From Brevundimonas sp. M20 (lineage in GTDB: Bacteria; Pseudomonadota; Alphaproteobacteria; Caulobacterales; Caulobacteraceae), in the NCBI RefSeq assembly GCF_006547065.1, contig NZ_CP041243.1:1875001-1939000 (forward strand): a stretch of DNA of 64,000 bases, written 5' to 3'. This document shows, one piece after another, positions 2,610 through 19,800 of this stretch. The notes beneath the pieces were generated by a model. That model was not told where the DNA came from. It did no database searches and saw only the letters and a program-made list of their open reading frames with translations. Positions within the stretch are counted from its first letter, which is position 1, and each line of letters begins with the position of its first letter. The translations under genes were made by a program, and so were the position numbers.

Positions 2610-3413
2610 TTAGCGGCCCGATATCAACAGGGCGTCCGCATATCCGCGCGCGACCACGGCCTGACGGGCGTGTTCGGCGGCGTTGGCGTCGGTCCAGGGG
2701 CCGACCAGAACCCGGTAAGCGGGCGAATCGCCCTGCCCCGCCACATCGACGGTCGCCCGGTCGCCGAGACGATCCGCCACCCGGCGAGCGGCGCGGCGGT
2801 CGCTGAACGATCCGGCCTGAATCCAGAACCGACCGGCCTCGGCGGCAGGCTCGGGACGCGGCGGCGGCGGCCCGGGCGCGACGGTGGCGGCGTACTGCAG
2901 CGGCTGGGCCGAGCCGAGACGCGGCGCCGGACCGAGGTAGCGCACCCTCACCTCGCCCACGCCTTGCTGAAGCATGCCCAGCTGGTCGGCGGCGCCGCGC
3001 GACAGGTCGATGATCCGCCCGTCCACGAACGGTCCCCGATCATTGATCCGCACCACGATGCTGCGTCCGTTGGCCAGATTGGTGACCTCGACCAGACCCG
3101 GCAGCGGCAAGGTCTTGTGAGCGGCGGTCAGGGCGTACATGTCGAACCGCTCGCCCGTCGCGGTCGGGCGGCCGTTGAACTGGTCCCCGTACCAGGAGGC
3201 GGTTCCGGTCTCGTCGTAGTTCGGCTGCTCCGCCGGGCGATACCAGCGCCCCCGGATCTGATAGGGCCGCATGGTGCCCGATACGATCGGCGCCGGATCG
3301 GTGACGACCGGAAGACGCGCCCCGCCTGTCGACCGCGCCCCGGTCGCGCACGCCGCCATCAGGGGCAGCAGCGCCACGATACAGGCGCCCTTGAGCAGTC
3401 TTGCCGTCATCAT
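2610..3413 (-). CDS. rlpA: RlpA family lipoprotein with SPOR domain
   Basis: 267 residues. An N-terminal signal ends in the lipobox LMAAC (Cys22), predicting an outer-membrane lipoprotein. Residues about 68-150 form the RlpA double-psi beta-barrel, with [19 protein letters not shown] and the VRINDRGPF motif typical of septal lytic transglycosylases. The last 75 residues are a SPOR domain ([19 protein letters not shown]) that binds denuded septal peptidoglycan. A role in cell division and peptidoglycan remodelling follows from the family. It lies upstream of tmk on the same strand and may be the first gene of that operon. Catalytic activity itself is not proven by sequence. Confidence 0.88.
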
Positions 3414-3507
3414 CCCGATCCTTGTGGAGATCCGGATGCCACACGGACATTTCCGCTTTGGTTAACGCGCCGTTTGAGGGTATGCGGCTTGTCCGCTCAC
3501 GGGACAC

Positions 3508-3597
3508 GGACAGGTGGCCGAGTGGTTTAAGGCAGCGGTCTTGAAAACCGCCGTAGGTGAGAGCCTACCGTGGGTTCGAATCCCACCCTGTCCGCCA
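3508..3597 (+). tRNA. tRNA-Ser(TGA)
   Basis: A complete class II tRNA of 90 nt including an encoded CCA. The acceptor stem GGACAGG/CCTGTCC pairs 3508-3514 with 3587-3593. The anticodon loop CTTGAAA gives anticodon TGA at 3542-3544. The long variable arm (GTAGGTGAGAGCCTAC) is typical for tRNA-Ser, and the T-loop is GGTTCGAATC. It stands alone on the plus strand between divergent rlpA and the convergent SDR gene. The 119 bases between it and the SDR stop hold no gene. Confidence 0.97.
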
Positions 3598-3716
3598 CCT
3601 TCATGGTGAAGCCTCCAGATTTCCGTTCAGACTGGAAAGCGGACATTGAAACTGCGGCGGAGCCCGGCGCCTGTCCGTCCCGGCCGGCTGGGCCGAGTGC
3701 GGACAGGCCTTCACAG

Positions 3717-4505
3717 TCAGACGGTCGGCACTGTTCCTCCATCGACGACGAGTTCCGTTCCGTGAATCGCACTGGCCCGGTCCGAGGCGAGGAACGCGAT
3801 GGCGTTCGCGACCTCGGAGGGTTCGGCGCCGCGTCCGATCGAGATGCCGCCCAGCCCGGAGAGGACAAGTTGTCTCGCGTCCTCGAGGGTTCCGCCATTA
3901 GCCGCCCGTATGCGCTCGAGGAACACATCCGTGCCCTCGGTCATGATCCAGCCCGGAGACACGGTGTTGACGCGCACTCCCCTTGGTCCGAGTTCCTTGG
4001 AGATGGACTTGCTGTAGGTCCGTAGCGCGGCCTTCGCGGCGGCATAGGCCGTCGTCGCGTCGGGGAGCGGCAGGACCGACTGGATGGAGGTGATATGCAC
4101 CACCGCGCCGGAGCCCCGTTCGATCATCTGCGGGATCAGCAGACGGTCGAGACGAACCGCCGCCAGCAGGTTCAAATTCAGCTCGGACAGCCAATCCTCG
4201 TCGGTCAAGGCGACGAAGCCGCCGCCCGGCGTGTTCGAGCCTCCAAGGACATGGACGAGGATATCGATCCCGCCCAGACGCTGAAGCGCCGCACCGGCGA
4301 GAGCTTCTCCCCCTGCCGCCGTCGTCAGATCCGCCTCAACGAATTCGACGCCGTCGATGGGCTCGGGGTTCGCGCGCGCCGAGGTGATCACCCGTGCGCC
4401 GCCGGCCAGGAAGCGCTCGACGGTGGCGCGGCCCAGACCCTTGGTGCCGCCGGTGATGAGGACACGCTTGCCCGCGAACTCCGTGGCATTCTCCGGGGCC
4501 CTCAC
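3717..4505 (-). CDS. SDR family oxidoreductase
   Basis: 262 residues, a classical short-chain dehydrogenase/reductase. The cofactor motif is TGGTKGLG (residues 18-25), and an Asp-Leu pair (EADLTT) follows the third strand. The catalytic Ser sits in HITSIQSVLP and the YxxxK pair in YAAAKAAL. The C-terminal ELVVDGGTVPTV is the usual SDR ending. It is translationally coupled to the NTF2-like gene, whose stop overlaps its start by four bases. Both are divergent from a LysR regulator. Substrate not predictable; the pairing with an NTF2-like protein suggests catabolic or detoxifying modification of a small hydrophobic molecule (inference). Confidence 0.88.
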   Translation of the reverse strand: MRAPENATEFAGKRVLITGGTKGLGRATVERFLAGGARVITSARANPEPIDGVEFVEADLTTAAGGEALAGAALQRLGGIDILVHVLGGSNTPGGGFVALTDEDWLSELNLNLLAAVRLDRLLIPQMIERGSGAVVHITSIQSVLPLPDATTAYAAAKAALRTYSKSISKELGPRGVRVNTVSPGWIMTEGTDVFLERIRAANGGTLEDARQLVLSGLGGISIGRGAEPSEVANAIAFLASDRASAIHGTELVVDGGTVPTV

Positions 4506-4831
4506 GCCGAGACCTCCATGGTCCTGATGGCGTCGCCGTCGAGTTCCACGCGGTAGGTGAAGCGGATCGGACTGCCCGGAAACTCACCATGGGCCGGACC
4601 TTCGACCACGACCGCCTGACCTTCATGACGAACGGCGTCGGGGCTGAAGATCGCCTTCAGGCCAACGACCATCTCCTCAAGCAGGGCGCGGATTTCGGCA
4701 TGACCCTCGAAGCGTTTGCCGTTGTCGAGGAAGACTGCGTCGGCGGCGAATGATTTCATCATACCGTCGAGGTCCAGCCTTGCATTGGCCTCCACATAGT
4801 CGGCGATCGGGGACGGAAGCTCTGGAGACAT
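4502..4831 (-). CDS. NTF2-like (SnoaL-type) nuclear transport factor 2 family protein
   Basis: 109 residues, matching the compact NTF2-like alpha+beta cone fold. The opening IADYVEANARLDLDGMMKSF, then DAVFLDNGKRFEGHAEIRALL, is the usual helix followed by first strands of SnoaL-like proteins. GEFPGSPIRFTYRVELDGDAI is the closing sheet. Members act as isomerases, cyclases or binding proteins. It is the first gene of a two-gene unit with the SDR (four-base overlap) and is divergently arranged from the LysR gene at 4959, with 127 bp of shared control region. Confidence 0.75.
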   Translation of the reverse strand: MSPELPSPIADYVEANARLDLDGMMKSFAADAVFLDNGKRFEGHAEIRALLEEMVVGLKAIFSPDAVRHEGQAVVVEGPAHGEFPGSPIRFTYRVELDGDAIRTMEVSA

Positions 4832-4914
4832 TGGTCTGTCCTGCTGTTTGGGTCACAGCCGGGTGGCCGCGCCTTTCGATGACGCCAAGATAGGGATGGA
4901 CAGATCGTGCGATA

Positions 4915-4956
4915 ATCGGGACAAATTTGGATGAGACGTCACGAAATTCGGGACAA
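4915..4956. promoter_or_regulatory. Direct repeats in the LysR/NTF2 intergenic region, candidate LysR site
   Basis: Two near-identical decamers, ATCGGGACAA (4915-4924) and TTCGGGACAA (4947-4956), lie 32 bp apart, about three helical turns, directly upstream of the LysR gene. LysR regulators commonly bind spaced sites in such divergent gaps and control both their own gene and the divergent operon. The repeats are seen in the sequence; binding is inference. Confidence 0.4.
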
Positions 4957-4958
4957 TC

Positions 4959-5879
4959 ATGAGAAGCAGCCTGACCGAATTGGACGCCGTTCTGGTCATC
5001 GCCCGCTGCGGCAAGTTCCGCGCGGCCGCGATCGAACTCGGTGTATCGACAACCGCGCTGAGTAACGCCGTTGGGAAGTTGGAGCGCACGCTTGGCGTTC
5101 GGCTCTTCAACCGGACGACAAGAAGCGTCTCATTGACCGAGGCGGGTCTGCAGTTCGTCGCCCAGGTCGCGCCCGCCATGCGAGACATCCATGAGGCCAT
5201 GGACATGGTGCGCTCCCGACAGGCCACACCCTCGGGCACCCTGCGCATCAATGCCTTTCCGACAGCGGCGCGGGAAATTTTCTCTTCGCTCGTCCTGCCG
5301 TTCGTTCATCAGCACCCCCAGGTCCATGTCGATATCGTCACGGAGGGTCGCATGGTGGACATCGTCGCCGGTGGCTTCGATTTCGGCGTCCGGAGCGCTG
5401 ATCGGGTGCCCGTCGACATGATCGCCCTTCCCCTGGGGGTCGCGCGACGTAATGTGGTGGTGGCTTCACCGACCTATCTGAAGGCCCATGGAAGGCCACG
5501 GGTTCCCCAGGACCTGTTGCGCCACTCGTGTCTTCGCGTCCGTCTTCCGAATGGCGCGCTCTATCGCTGGCCGTTCGAGAAGGAGGGCGAGTCCATTCAC
5601 ATCGACGTCGAAGGCCCCCTCACCCTCGATGAAGCCAGCCTCGCCCGCACCGCCGCCATCGCGTCGATGGGCCTCACCCTGGCGATGGAAGCCGACGTGC
5701 GGGACGACCTTGAGACCGGCAGGCTGATACCCGTTCTCGAGGACTGGACGCCCGCCCTGTCGCCATTGAGCCTCTACTATCCCAGCCGTCGTAACCCGAC
5801 CGCCGCGTTCAAGGCGTTCATCGACTTTGCGCGACAAAACGGGAAAGCCGAATCTCCGCCCGGCGCCAGCCTGCCGTAA
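4959..5879 (+). CDS. LysR family transcriptional regulator
   Basis: 306 residues, standard for the family. The N-terminal winged helix-turn-helix covers residues 1-60 ([19 protein letters not shown], then [19 protein letters not shown]). The C-terminal two-lobed effector-binding domain covers about 90-295. The [15 protein letters not shown] and [14 protein letters not shown] segments resemble the CrgA/YafC-like subgroup that often controls neighbouring oxidoreductases. It is divergent from the NTF2-SDR pair, which is therefore the likely target. The inducer is unknown. The ATG at 4959 fits the domain start. Confidence 0.92.
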
Positions 5880-16606: not shown

Positions 16607-17791
16607 ATGACCGACCGTTCCGACCGCACGCGCCTGATCGCCGGGGCCACCCGCCGCACATCAGGCCCCGGGCTCGGCCGTCGCCCGGTCTCCCCGCCGG
16701 TCGAGCGGGCCTCGACCCTGCTCAACGATTCGCCGTCCGCCATGCGGGACGGCTCCATCGGCCCGACCTACGGCATCGAGGACCTGTCCGCGGGGCGCGA
16801 ACTGCGCGCGGCGCTGGCCGAATTGGAGGGGGCTTCCGACGTCTGGCTGGTCCCGTCCGGCCTCGCCGCCGTCACCGTGCCCCTGACCGCCCTGCTCCAG
16901 CCCGGCGATCAGGTGCTGACGACCGACGCCCTGTACGGCCCCACCCGCCGCTTCCTGTATCGCCACCTGCGGCCGCGCGGGATCGACACCGTCTTCCACC
17001 CCGCCGAGGCCGGGACCGAAGCCATCCTGTCCGCCCTGACCGACCGGACGAAGGTGATGCTGATCGAGTCGCCCGGCTCCCTGACCTTCGAGATGCAGGA
17101 CGTCCCCGCCCTCGCCGCCGCCTGTCGCGAACGCGGTGTCCTGACGATCATGGACAACACCTGGGGCGCGGGTCTGGCCTTCAAGCCTCTGGCCCATGGC
17201 GTCGATGTCAGCGTTCAGGCCCTGACGAAGTACGCGGGCGGCCACTCCGACCTGCTGATGGGCTCCATCGCCGTCGCCGATGACATCGTCGGCAAACCGA
17301 TCTTCGAGACGATTGAGGACCATGGCTGGCGCGTTACCTCCGACGACGCCTGGCTGGCCCTGCGCGGCCTGCGCACCCTGCCCTTGCGCTATGCCGAACA
17401 GGCCCGCTCGGCGCGGATCGTCGCCGACTGGCTCAAGGCCCGGCCCGAGGTCGCCGACGTGATCTGGCCCGCCCTGCCCGGCTCACCCGCCCACGACTTG
17501 TGGAGCCGCGACTACACCGGCGCCGCGTCCCTGTTCGGACTGGTGATGAAGGGCGGCGACACGGCCGCTGCCCACGCCCTGATGTCGGCCCTCAGCCTGT
17601 TCGGCCTCGGCTATTCCTGGGGCGGCTTCGAAAGCCTGATCACCCACGAGACCGCGCAATTGGCGATGCGCGGATCACCGCCGAAGCTGGCGGGCGAACT
17701 GCTGCGCCTGCATGTAGGGCTGGAAGACCCGGCGGAACTGATCGTCGATCTGGAAGTCGGGCTGGCGGCGTGGACGGCGGCGACGACCTGA
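16607..17791 (+). CDS. metC: Cystathionine beta-lyase
   Basis: 394 residues, Cys/Met metabolism PLP-dependent enzyme family. It converts cystathionine to homocysteine, pyruvate and ammonia. The PLP Schiff-base lysine is in SVQALTKYAGGHSD (near 207). YGPTRRFLYRHLRPRGID binds cofactor phosphate and substrate; the Asp of IMDNTWGAGLAF stacks with the PLP pyridine nitrogen. The ending YSWGGFESLITHE is characteristic of MetC rather than gamma-synthases. Divergent from the binding-protein gene with an 87 bp gap. Confidence 0.9.
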   Translation: MTDRSDRTRLIAGATRRTSGPGLGRRPVSPPVERASTLLNDSPSAMRDGSIGPTYGIEDLSAGRELRAALAELEGASDVWLVPSGLAAVTVPLTALLQPGDQVLTTDALYGPTRRFLYRHLRPRGIDTVFHPAEAGTEAILSALTDRTKVMLIESPGSLTFEMQDVPALAAACRERGVLTIMDNTWGAGLAFKPLAHGVDVSVQALTKYAGGHSDLLMGSIAVADDIVGKPIFETIEDHGWRVTSDDAWLALRGLRTLPLRYAEQARSARIVADWLKARPEVADVIWPALPGSPAHDLWSRDYTGAASLFGLVMKGGDTAAAHALMSALSLFGLGYSWGGFESLITHETAQLAMRGSPPKLAGELLRLHVGLEDPAELIVDLEVGLAAWTAATT

Positions 17792-17828
17792 GCGATCCTT
17801 GTTCGCGACGATGATTCTGGGGCGAACG

Positions 17829-18155
17829 ATGAGCGCGGTTTCGGCAGCCTGTCTGGCGCTTCTGGCCCTGTCGACCGGCTGCGCGAAGCCGCAGCCGATA
17901 GCCAGGGCCGAGGCCGCCTGCGACATCGCCACACAGAAGGTCACTGAGCTAAGAGGCCTCCCGACCAGCCATGTCGCGCATTGCGAAAAGCTGGGTGAGG
18001 CGAACGGCTATTACCCCCTCGCCCTCTACGCCCATTGCAAGGAAGCGGTCTGCGGCAGCACCAGCATGGGCTGGTTCGCCGTCAGCAAGACGACCGGCGA
18101 AGTGTTCGAATGGGATGTCACGGCGTTGCGGGCGGGACCGCGCCTGAAAGAATAA
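17829..18155 (+). CDS. Small predicted lipoprotein, unknown function
   Basis: 108 residues from the ATG at 17829, chosen because GGGG lies six bases upstream; an ATG at 17811 would add six residues. The signal MSAVSAACLALLALSTGC ends in a lipobox with Cys18. The mature part has four more cysteines (ACDIATQ, HCEKLG, HCKEAVCG), suggesting disulfides. Its end, SKTTGEVFEWDVTALRAG, looks like a small beta-domain. It follows metC by 37 bp on the same strand. No family recognised. Confidence 0.55.
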   Translation: MSAVSAACLALLALSTGCAKPQPIARAEAACDIATQKVTELRGLPTSHVAHCEKLGEANGYYPLALYAHCKEAVCGSTSMGWFAVSKTTGEVFEWDVTALRAGPRLKE

Positions 18156-18225
18156 ACTTCGCGGGCCTTGGCACGCTCTCCGGGCTTCGACGCTGAATCC
18201 TGCCGATGGAAATTAGGCCGTCAAA

Positions 18226-18774
18226 CTAGCGCTGTTCCGGCCCATCACCTGACGCTGACAGGAAGCGGCAGACGAACGATAGCGGCGCATAGACCTTGTG
18301 GTCAGCCAGCAGCAGCCGCTCGATCTGCCCCAATAGCCCGCCCACCTGCCGGATCGCCACTTCCCGGCTGACGATGACACGCGGCGCAAGGCTCTCGACG
18401 GGCACGCGGTAGGCGTTCAACCACTCGGCATCCAGTGTAACGTCTTCGCCGTCCAACACGGTATTGAAAGTCACATCGAAGCCCTGTTCGTAAATGCCGA
18501 ACTTCCGGGCTCCCGTCGGCCAGATCAGCCAGCGACCGAATTGGATCAGGTCAGAAAGATTGATGGCCAAATCGTCCCAGCAAAGGGTCAAGCGCACCCC
18601 TGCCCAATCTATGCAGAAATCCGGTCGTCCCAAGGCTTCGAGCGCGTCCACGACCGCGCCCTGAAAATCGTAGTCGAGTTCCTTCAGCTCCCAGATACGC
18701 ACGGCGCTCCAGTCGAGCACTGGCGGAGGCTCGGTCCACTGGATCGTCAGGGCGAACGGTTCAACAGGCGTCAT
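18226..18774 (-). CDS. Hypothetical protein of unknown function, likely accessory
   Basis: 182 residues from the ATG at 18774 (MTPVEPFALTIQW). Upstream in-frame codons run into the integration-site repeat and are unlikely to be coding. The protein is acidic and rich in Trp and Asp, with blocks such as DWSAVRIWELKELDYDFQG, DFCIDWAGVRLTLCWDD and FGRWLIWPTGARKFGIY. No signal peptide or membrane span. Its composition recalls small immunity-type proteins, but that is only a resemblance. It has lower GC than its neighbours and sits next to the displaced tRNA-Arg fragment, so horizontal origin is likely. Confidence 0.55.
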   Translation of the reverse strand: MTPVEPFALTIQWTEPPPVLDWSAVRIWELKELDYDFQGAVVDALEALGRPDFCIDWAGVRLTLCWDDLAINLSDLIQFGRWLIWPTGARKFGIYEQGFDVTFNTVLDGEDVTLDAEWLNAYRVPVESLAPRVIVSREVAIRQVGGLLGQIERLLLADHKVYAPLSFVCRFLSASGDGPEQR

Positions 18775-18849
18775 CGCCAACTGAACTCTCCTCTCCCCGG
18801 TCCTAGCGAGAGTGCGATGCTCCGCTCTGTGCGAGGTCAGCTGAGCAGA

Positions 18850-18869
18850 TGTAAAACCGGCTGTAAAAC
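18850..18869 (+). repeat. Two TGTAAAAC repeats left of the displaced att copy
   Basis: TGTAAAAC occurs at 18850-18857 and 18862-18869, 12 bp apart in direct orientation, just outside the displaced tRNA fragment. Further copies are at 18975-18982, 19026-19033 and 19528-19535, all in the same orientation. Such short, directly repeated, AT-rich sites beside a core resemble integrase arm-type sites. Their role is inferred. Confidence 0.5.
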
Positions 18870-18880
18870 CATCAGCCGCA

Positions 18881-18940
18881 ATCCCGCTCAAACCCTGGCG
18901 CGCCCTGCAGGATTCGAACCTGCGACCGTCCGCTTAGAAG
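18881..18940. repeat. Direct repeat copy 1 (displaced att site)
   Basis: 60 bp identical to 19547-19606 except one base (C at 18889 against G at 19555). It covers the 3' half of tRNA-Arg from just past the anticodon to CCA plus 15 bp of downstream flank. Similarity continues leftward, with gaps, to a TGTAAAAC copy. The layout matches the attL/attR pair left by a tyrosine recombinase crossing over in a tRNA anticodon loop. Confidence 0.85.
18896..18940 (-). pseudogene. Displaced 3' half of tRNA-Arg
   Basis: Reading the minus strand, this fragment holds the anticodon TCT and the rest of the anticodon loop, the 3' anticodon strand, variable loop, T arm, 3' acceptor strand and CCA of tRNA-Arg. 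It lacks the 5' acceptor strand and D arm: beyond 18940 the sequence (ATAGTGCGATAGTCC) is unrelated to the intact gene. It cannot make a functional tRNA and marks an integration site. Confidence 0.85.
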
Positions 18941-19071
18941 ATAGTGCGATAGTCCGAAATTTCAGCGCCTTAGGTGTAAAACCGCGCGTTATCTAACCTC
19001 GCCAGCGCTAAACCGACGGACGGGGTGTAAAACTTCAAGGACGCCAATGTCCGCTTTCGACCCAGAGCGGA

Positions 19072-19419
19072 CTAGATTGATTTCGGCTTCGTTCGCCAAA
19101 ATCGCAAAAATGCCGCCCTTAGCGTCAAACCGAATGCCGCGCCCACACAGCCGACGACAAGCCATGAGCCACTCAGCAAGCCGGCCACCATCAACAAACC
19201 GGCCCAGAGGACAAACTTGAAATCTGACGATGCGGCTCCCGAAGACATGAATGAGGCGGCGGCCAAACCTGCCCAAATAAGAACTGCGAGCAAGCAGCCG
19301 CCCAACAGGCCCGCGATGGCGCCGCGTGCCGACCAGCGAGCTGATCCTGATGCGCACACTACGAAGGCAAGGAGCGTCCACCAGAGCAGTGGGTCCCCGT
19401 AGATTGATCGACCGTCCAC
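19072..19419 (-). CDS. Small multi-span membrane protein, unknown function
   Basis: 115 residues from a GTG at 19419 preceded by GGGGGA. The hydrophobic spans are near residues 12-24, 31-51, 68-84 and 85-103 (WWTLLAFVVCASG, GAIAGLLGGCLLAVLIWAGL, FVLWAGLLMVAGLLSGS, WLVVGCVGAAFGLTLRAAFL), ending in a basic RFWRTKPKSI tail that should face the cytoplasm. No family recognised. It is the only gene between the two att-like repeats and so the only visible cargo of the putative element. Confidence 0.5.
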   Translation of the reverse strand: MDGRSIYGDPLLWWTLLAFVVCASGSARWSARGAIAGLLGGCLLAVLIWAGLAAASFMSSGAASSDFKFVLWAGLLMVAGLLSGSWLVVGCVGAAFGLTLRAAFLRFWRTKPKSI

Positions 19420-19546
19420 TCATCCCCCGGCATCGTGATCTGCCGATGCTAGCTCTGCGGAAGTCAGCTTTCTACCCTTAGCGGTCATTCAGAGAGTCCG
19501 CTTTCGGCGTGAGCACCCGCCGGGCCGTGTAAAACTTTTCAGGCCG

Positions 19547-19606
19547 ATCCCGCTGAAACCCTGGCGCGCCCTGCAGGATTCGAACCTGCGACCGTCCGCT
19601 TAGAAG
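19547..19606. repeat. Direct repeat copy 2 (att site within intact tRNA-Arg)
   Basis: Partner of 18881-18940, one mismatch in 60 bp. It overlaps the 3' half of the intact tRNA-Arg and 15 bp of its downstream flank. A TGTAAAAC copy lies just left at 19528-19535, at nearly the same distance as in copy 1, so the arm-like site was duplicated with the core. Confidence 0.85.
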
Positions 19607-19638
19607 GCGGGTGCTCTATCCAGCTGAGCTAAGGGCGC
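19562..19638 (-). tRNA. tRNA-Arg(TCT)
   Basis: 77 nt including encoded CCA. The acceptor stem GCGCCCT/AGGGCGC pairs 19632-19638 with 19666-equivalent bases at 19566-19572. The D arm is GCTC...GAGC. The anticodon loop CTTCTAA gives TCT at 19602-19604, reading AGA codons. The T arm is GCAGG-TTCGAAT-CCTGC. Its 3' half is duplicated at 18896-18940, so this is the restored copy at an integration site. Confidence 0.96.
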
Positions 19639-19699
19639 TGAAGGGATGGCAAGGCCGTACCCGTAAGACCAAAATGGCTCAAGGGCTGCACGGTCGTCC

Positions 19700-19768
19700 G
19701 GCCTCAAGTCGCGCGAAGCGCGGTAGGCCAAACAGAAATGGCCTCAAGTAGCCGATAGGCGACAGGCC
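19700..19768. repeat. Two tandem related stem-loops
   Basis: Two units share the start GGCCTCAAGT and an AGGCC end: 19700-19729 and 19740-19768. In each, GGCCT pairs with AGGCC, and the unit is followed by an A-rich spacer (AAACAGAA, TAACAAAGAA). They sit in the 157 bp between tRNA-Arg and the complex I subunit gene, which holds no gene. They may be REP-like intergenic repeats or processing signals. Confidence 0.5.
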
Positions 19769-19774
19769 TAACAA

Positions 19775-19800
19775 AGAAGCACTGACCGCTATGCGGTCAG
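19775..19800 (-). terminator. Hairpin overlapping the complex I subunit stop
   Basis: CTGACCGC and GCGGTCAG (19782-19800) form a perfect 8 bp stem around a TAT loop and overlap the stop codon at 19797. On the minus strand it is followed by TGCTTCTTTG, a weak T-rich tail, so it is a probable terminator. A similar GACCGCT/AGCGGTC hairpin is at 29400-29415. Confidence 0.5.

Follow-up and report, generated by a model that had tools for sequence, protein, structure and literature searches.

Cis-mobilizable elements (CIMEs) are decayed ICEs and IMEs that are without integration or transfer genes and keep core sites at both ends, as set out in an excerpt of PMC5704250. At ssrA of Dehalococcoides, 15 tandem islands without an integration module are thought to have moved with their neighbours (excerpt of PMC3146451). 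The vrl locus of Dichelobacter nodosus lies in ssrA and has no integrase gene, and transduction from a phage packaging site has been proposed for it (excerpt of PMC2593044); SaPIs have their own integrase and excisionase (excerpt of PMC12829572). Here we describe a tRNA-Arg locus whose sequence makes it probable that a stranded, integrase-less unit, unit B, lies in a tandem array, now decayed, that belongs to a family of Brevundimonas phage integrases.

The window, the whole 64-kb stretch of DNA analysed, contains a 60-nt direct repeat, 18881-18940 and 19547-19606, whose copies start 666 bases apart and differ at one position. Each copy consists of 45 bases of the 3' part of tRNA-Arg(TCT), a gene called by ARAGORN, and 15 bases outside the gene. 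The tRNA portion reaches two bases past the anticodon and is identical in both copies, the sole mismatch (position 18889) falling in the 15 non-tRNA bases. The sequence-only reading had described this repeat, its spacing and its end beside the anticodon, and all were borne out by the repeat and tRNA coordinates. It had also found the interval to be without a recombinase, in agreement with which tblastn of two family integrases, from the related elements G016 and G024 introduced below, gave no match in the window. By their sequence, the two copies seem to behave like attachment cores.

Near these cores we found TGTAAAAC at 18850, 18862, 18975, 19026 and 19528, all on the plus strand and within 690 bp. 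These five are every TGTAAAAC in the window, for which 100 shuffles gave a mean of 0.09 and a maximum of 1, and the whole 3.3-Mb host genome has 13. Four of them stand at -31, -19, +94 and +145 around the start of the 18881 core, as at both ends of the G016 element. Before the 19547 core the -19 site is present and the -31 site absent. We regard the five as putative arm sites, to which an integrase would bind.

Features of the tRNA-Arg locus, in window positions
Feature	Position	Strand	Basis
metC-like gene (Cys_Met_Meta_PP), left chromosomal neighbour	16607..17791	+	abuts or overlaps tRNA-side core in 10/24 relatives
Gene for 184-aa protein, possible cargo of unit A	18229..18780	-	codon-position GC 0.66/0.42/0.76
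Right arm pair (-31, -19) ahead of distal core, marking right end of unit A	18850..18869	+	order as in G016, G001, G119
Distal core, common to units A and B	18881..18940	+	direct repeat, 59/60 identical
Unit B: interior and one core (666 bp), without a recombinase but with both ends	18941..19606	+	repeat, ORF list, tblastn
Left arm site of unit B, +94 from core start	18975..18982	+	offset equal in other left ends
Left arm site of unit B, +145	19026..19033	+	GTAAAA within one base of place in 8/8 left ends, window included
115-aa hydrophobic ORF in unit B, doubtful gene	19072..19419	-	codon-position GC, protein search
Stretch before right end of unit B, possibly a dispersed repeat	19457..19510	+	short matches to query 517-570 in G012, G016, G027, G029
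Right arm site of unit B, -19 from core; usual -31 partner missing	19528..19535	+	compared with full elements
Core on tRNA side (15 bp and tRNA 3' part), forming right end of unit B	19547..19606	+	direct repeat; position matches full elements
Intact tRNA-Arg(TCT), integration target	19562..19638	-	ARAGORN; Rfam tRNA 68 bits

Large insertions occupy the same tRNA in Brevundimonas sp. A19_0 (G016, ~39 kb), B. pishanensis (G024, ~37 kb) and B. bullata (G001, ~38 kb). In G016 a 376-aa integrase ORF (PF00589) points toward the tRNA and contains, within its terminal codons, two TGTAAAAC copies at -31 and -19 relative to the core; the opposite end of the element has another two, at +94 and +145 from the start of its core. 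Arm sites in the final integrase codons (L039:9800-9846) are read as a protein tail VKPxVKP. An integrase gene stands beside the arms, and its ORF extends to them, in all three elements and in that of UBA7664 (G111), while in ASV9 (G119) a cargo gene lies between the two. With ORFs in the left end of the G016 element that we take to be tail-type, these related elements look like prophages. Of 50,697 phage records, that of Mesorhizobium phage vB_MseS-P1 was the closest to the family (50.7%). A separate integrase relative (63%; L156, after 4000) likewise has the paired arms, next to a sequence that resembles a tRNA, by eye tRNA-Pro.

A left-junction pattern with free spacing recovered seven junctions in 6 of 131 genus genomes, with one spacing in all seven; an earlier, stricter pattern had given four among 299 genomes sampled from the bacterial family, all in Brevundimonas. 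The first left arm was part of the retrieval pattern, so its presence proves nothing. The second arm, which did not enter the pattern, occurs in all eight left ends, the window included, as GTAAAA displaced by at most one base, and outside the arms these left ends are 35% identical pairwise. Paired right arms were found in 14 of the 131 genus genomes, at one locus each (tRNA-Gln 8, tRNA-Arg 5, tRNA-Gly 1); in these assignments L097, with an N run and no ARAGORN tRNA, was placed by sequence, and the pair in the window precedes a partial copy. A reversed control pattern had no match among the genomes listed.

A single integrated element would have its right arms facing the tRNA and its left arms facing the other flank. 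At 18850-19033, right arms, core and left arms follow one another in a row, an attP-like order that is expected of a circle or of a junction between tandem units, and which in the chromosome indicates two tandem units. Moreover, the 15 bases preceding the tRNA-derived part at 18881 match the right-end type and differ from what precedes the distal cores in G016 and G024. Together, the row of sites and these 15 bases suggest that two units met here, which would once have been separate. The sequence-only reading of one small integrated element at tRNA-Arg holds in so far as the interval looks like a product of site-specific integration, with the end anatomy of the 37-39 kb integrase-bearing elements, but it has to be amended on the left, where 18881 is preceded by the right end of a second unit. 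We therefore consider the locus, in all likelihood, to be what remains of a tandem array, with unit B keeping both ends and unit A a right end.

A profile search of the host, which covered the PF00589 recombinase family, gave three matches, two above the cut-off (ORFs of 299 and 309 aa), which look like XerC and XerD, and one below. No phage-type integrase was found above the cut-off in this search, and tblastn of two family integrases against the three loci produced a single match with an E value of 0.59. As no phage-type integrase was seen in the host, unit B looks stranded. On the account that we favour, a phage-type tyrosine integrase would have inserted elements into the 3' end of tRNA-Arg(TCT), giving a tandem array that has since decayed. 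Of unit B, a crossover core on either side, both left arm sites and a single right arm site of the usual pair would have been retained, but no recombinase gene; all that would survive of unit A, to its left, is a right end made up of a pair of arm sites plus the core common to both units, and possibly one cargo gene. A family integrase would bind the arms, pair the two cores and excise unit B as a small circle, which could re-enter a tRNA-Arg; in a host without such an integrase, unit B would now be stranded. Given a helper integrase, unit B might still be excisable. Counted against this account are the missing -31 site at the right end of unit B, the lack of a left end of unit A, the doubtful 115-aa ORF of unit B, the right arms of G024, which are altered with an extra A, the N runs in the core copies of UBA7664, a MAG, and a genome set that contains no near relative of the host.

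With the tRNA and its right neighbour as query, matches were obtained in 81 of 81 genomes. From 44 of the 48 other genomes of the genus we took 50 stretches, and the tRNA match allowed 43 of these stretches to be oriented. Of the oriented stretches, 24 contained the metC-like gene, and in 10 of these the gene match either overlaps the core or stops no more than 81 bases from it; the gene of the window ends at 17791, which is 1,755 bases before 19547. The sequence-only reading had proposed a search of relatives for empty sites and larger islands; metC-like genes abut or overlap the core in those 10 of 24, and large elements occur in G016, G024 and G001. The outcome named there as telling against insertion, relatives all carrying the same interval, was not seen in the genomes searched: the 606-bp interior has matches in 6 of 61 genomes including the host, and the other five match over pieces of 26-53 bp only, for which reason we rejected the idea of a widespread repeat. 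At the same tRNA-Arg, G003 has a 2.3-kb interval (L058:7780-10189) bounded by a diverged partial tRNA copy. It was rejected as a member of the TGTAAAAC-arm family, having no TGTAAAAC within one substitution, and perhaps stems from another integrase.

The largest ORF wholly inside unit B between the cores encodes 144 aa and overlaps the 115-aa ORF in antisense. The sequence-only reading had placed a small membrane protein in the interval. A hydrophobic 115-aa ORF does exist, but it is a weak candidate for a gene: its GC by codon position is 0.55/0.58/0.66, versus 0.70/0.53/0.89 in the neighbouring metC-like gene, and a protein search returned one cluster, identical in sequence, on two contigs of at most 5,431 bases. 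It had no PADLOC or PHROGs match, and unit B may carry nothing, given how doubtful this ORF is. We also observed GTCCGCTTTCG twice in unit B (19049-19059 and 19496-19506), with three further copies in the genome; it may be a dispersed repeat at which the ends of a deletion could have been joined. To the left, upstream of the arms of unit A, no continuation of the family-integrase frame was detected by tblastn. The 184-aa protein encoded there has five further relatives in a protein search and none in the other 130 genus genomes (host, 1 of 131). It gave no Pfam, PADLOC or PHROGs match, and none of eight viral stretches matching a pattern encodes a relative. Its gene is perhaps cargo of unit A. 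The gene at 17799-18155 was not counted as cargo, having matches in 11 other genus genomes.

Alternatively, tandem prophages could have been almost wholly deleted in place, with unit B as immobile debris whose ends survive by chance, an account that we rate at slightly under an even chance. The missing right arm site and a host without a phage-type integrase above the cut-off would fit such decay, as would the decayed arrays and integrase remnants seen at tRNA-Gln in G009, G096 and G101; the G009 tandem array includes a truncated integrase (L111, oriented by paired arms, about 17340-19800) and ORFs that are presumably transposase-like. Chance survival is harder to reconcile with cores that agree in all 45 tRNA bases and with two intact left arm sites. 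It is also at odds with IMG/VR 3300006790_000460 (L130), in which a right end resembling that of unit B, reading TGTAGACT at the place of the -19 site, is joined to a phage left end. L130 is one of seven stretches of viral contigs with the unit-B right-end pattern; the other six have no TGTAAAAC in the DNA examined and look unrelated, and a match in G137 was set aside as it sits at tRNA-Arg(ACG). A further argument against a dead locus comes from UBA7664, a Brevundimonas MAG in which two left junctions 2,633 bases apart are followed by a full element of ~39 kb with its integrase beside the right arms. The 2,633-bp unit (L127, reverse strand, about 3062-5738) has complete ends, two long full-length genes and no integrase match. 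PADLOC assigns these genes to the anti-phage defence pair PD-Lambda-5 as A (E 6.6e-181) and B (E 1.3e-111), and B is a D12 methyltransferase by Pfam.

The UBA7664 unit also bears on whether unit B was ever a prophage, since its cargo is different and its left end is unlike that of the adjoining full element. Unit B might likewise have been a small cassette from the outset, brought in by a family integrase acting in trans. Such an origin would also suit G157, where a 15-kb element at tRNA-Gly(CCC) has arms at both ends (L119:4740-19740) and none of the five PF00589 matches of the genome lies on its contig; a decayed right end precedes its distal core. We nevertheless think this origin unlikely for unit B, which has almost nothing besides its ends, has a left end resembling that of the G016 element, as deletion in place would give, and has no second copy of its 606-bp interior in the 61 genomes. 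Partial tRNA copies can form by several routes, but chance duplication of tRNA debris without an integrase is a most improbable source of the 18881 copy, which is flanked on either side by arm sites with the spacing of the family and whose end falls on the same base as that of the distal cores in full elements.

Compared with these alternatives, decay of a tandem array that left unit B stranded, and perhaps still excisable, remains our preferred reading, and other members of the family bear on how cargo might be gained. In ASV9, a KAP-NTPase gene (L118:9537-12457; PF07693; PADLOC PDC-S49, E 6.9e-22) lies between the integrase and the right arms; we rejected this locus as a tandem, as it has one right end with the gene inserted there. 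A MUG113/T5orf172 gene (L154:4206-4598) has the same place in IMG/VR 3300006790_000079, and the integrases of both elements are without the arm-encoding tail. These genes may reflect cargo capture by junction loss: a prophage integrated beside a cassette would, on losing the junction, come to have cargo between integrase and arms. More tentatively, integrase-less att cassettes, down to 0.67 kb, might form a passenger class excised and accreted at tRNA genes by phages of one integrase family, some with defence systems such as the PD-Lambda-5 of UBA7664. The tRNA would then act as a loading dock, where a prophage gains a neighbouring cassette whose cargo can be captured by junction loss.

The interest of the locus lies in its arm signature and in the class of units that this indicates. 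Units without a recombinase are hard to find, and the arm-site signature makes such cassettes directly searchable. Should they be mobile in trans, phages would be able to disseminate short defence cassettes without encoding these themselves. The locus is also a naturally occurring, near-minimal substrate on which the requirements of an integrase can be studied.

Among known systems, phage-inducible chromosomal islands share with these loci small units at phage-type attachment sites and defence genes nearby, but differ from unit B and the UBA7664 unit, which are without integrase or excisionase (excerpt of PMC12829572). By the ORF list and tblastn of family integrases, unit B has no integrase of its own, which sets it apart from a PICI-type phage satellite and from a prophage of the TGTAAAAC-arm family, although with its core at tRNA-Arg and arms at both ends it has all of the end anatomy of such prophages except one right arm site. 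The vrl locus is similar in being integrated, having no integrase gene and possibly being moved by phage, and different in its ssrA site and proposed transduction from a phage packaging site, as opposed to an att cassette at tRNA-Arg (excerpt of PMC2593044). The Dehalococcoides islands likewise stand in tandem at one RNA gene without an integration module, but depend on a serine recombinase, whereas the family here is of the tyrosine type (PF00589), and the excerpt concerned makes no mention of an arm-site signature (PMC3146451). CIMEs differ in that the related integrase-bearing elements here are prophage-like and that unit B measures 0.67 kb (excerpt of PMC5704250). The likeness to CIMEs is nonetheless the closest: unit B has no integration or transfer genes in the ORF list or by tblastn of two family integrases, its putative attL and attR have cores and arm sites with one right arm site missing, and it stands in tandem with a second element at the 3' end of a tRNA gene, as seen in the row of sites at 18850-19033 (compare the excerpt of PMC5704250). 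Unit B thus appears to be built like a CIME, a kind formed by decay and tandem accretion.
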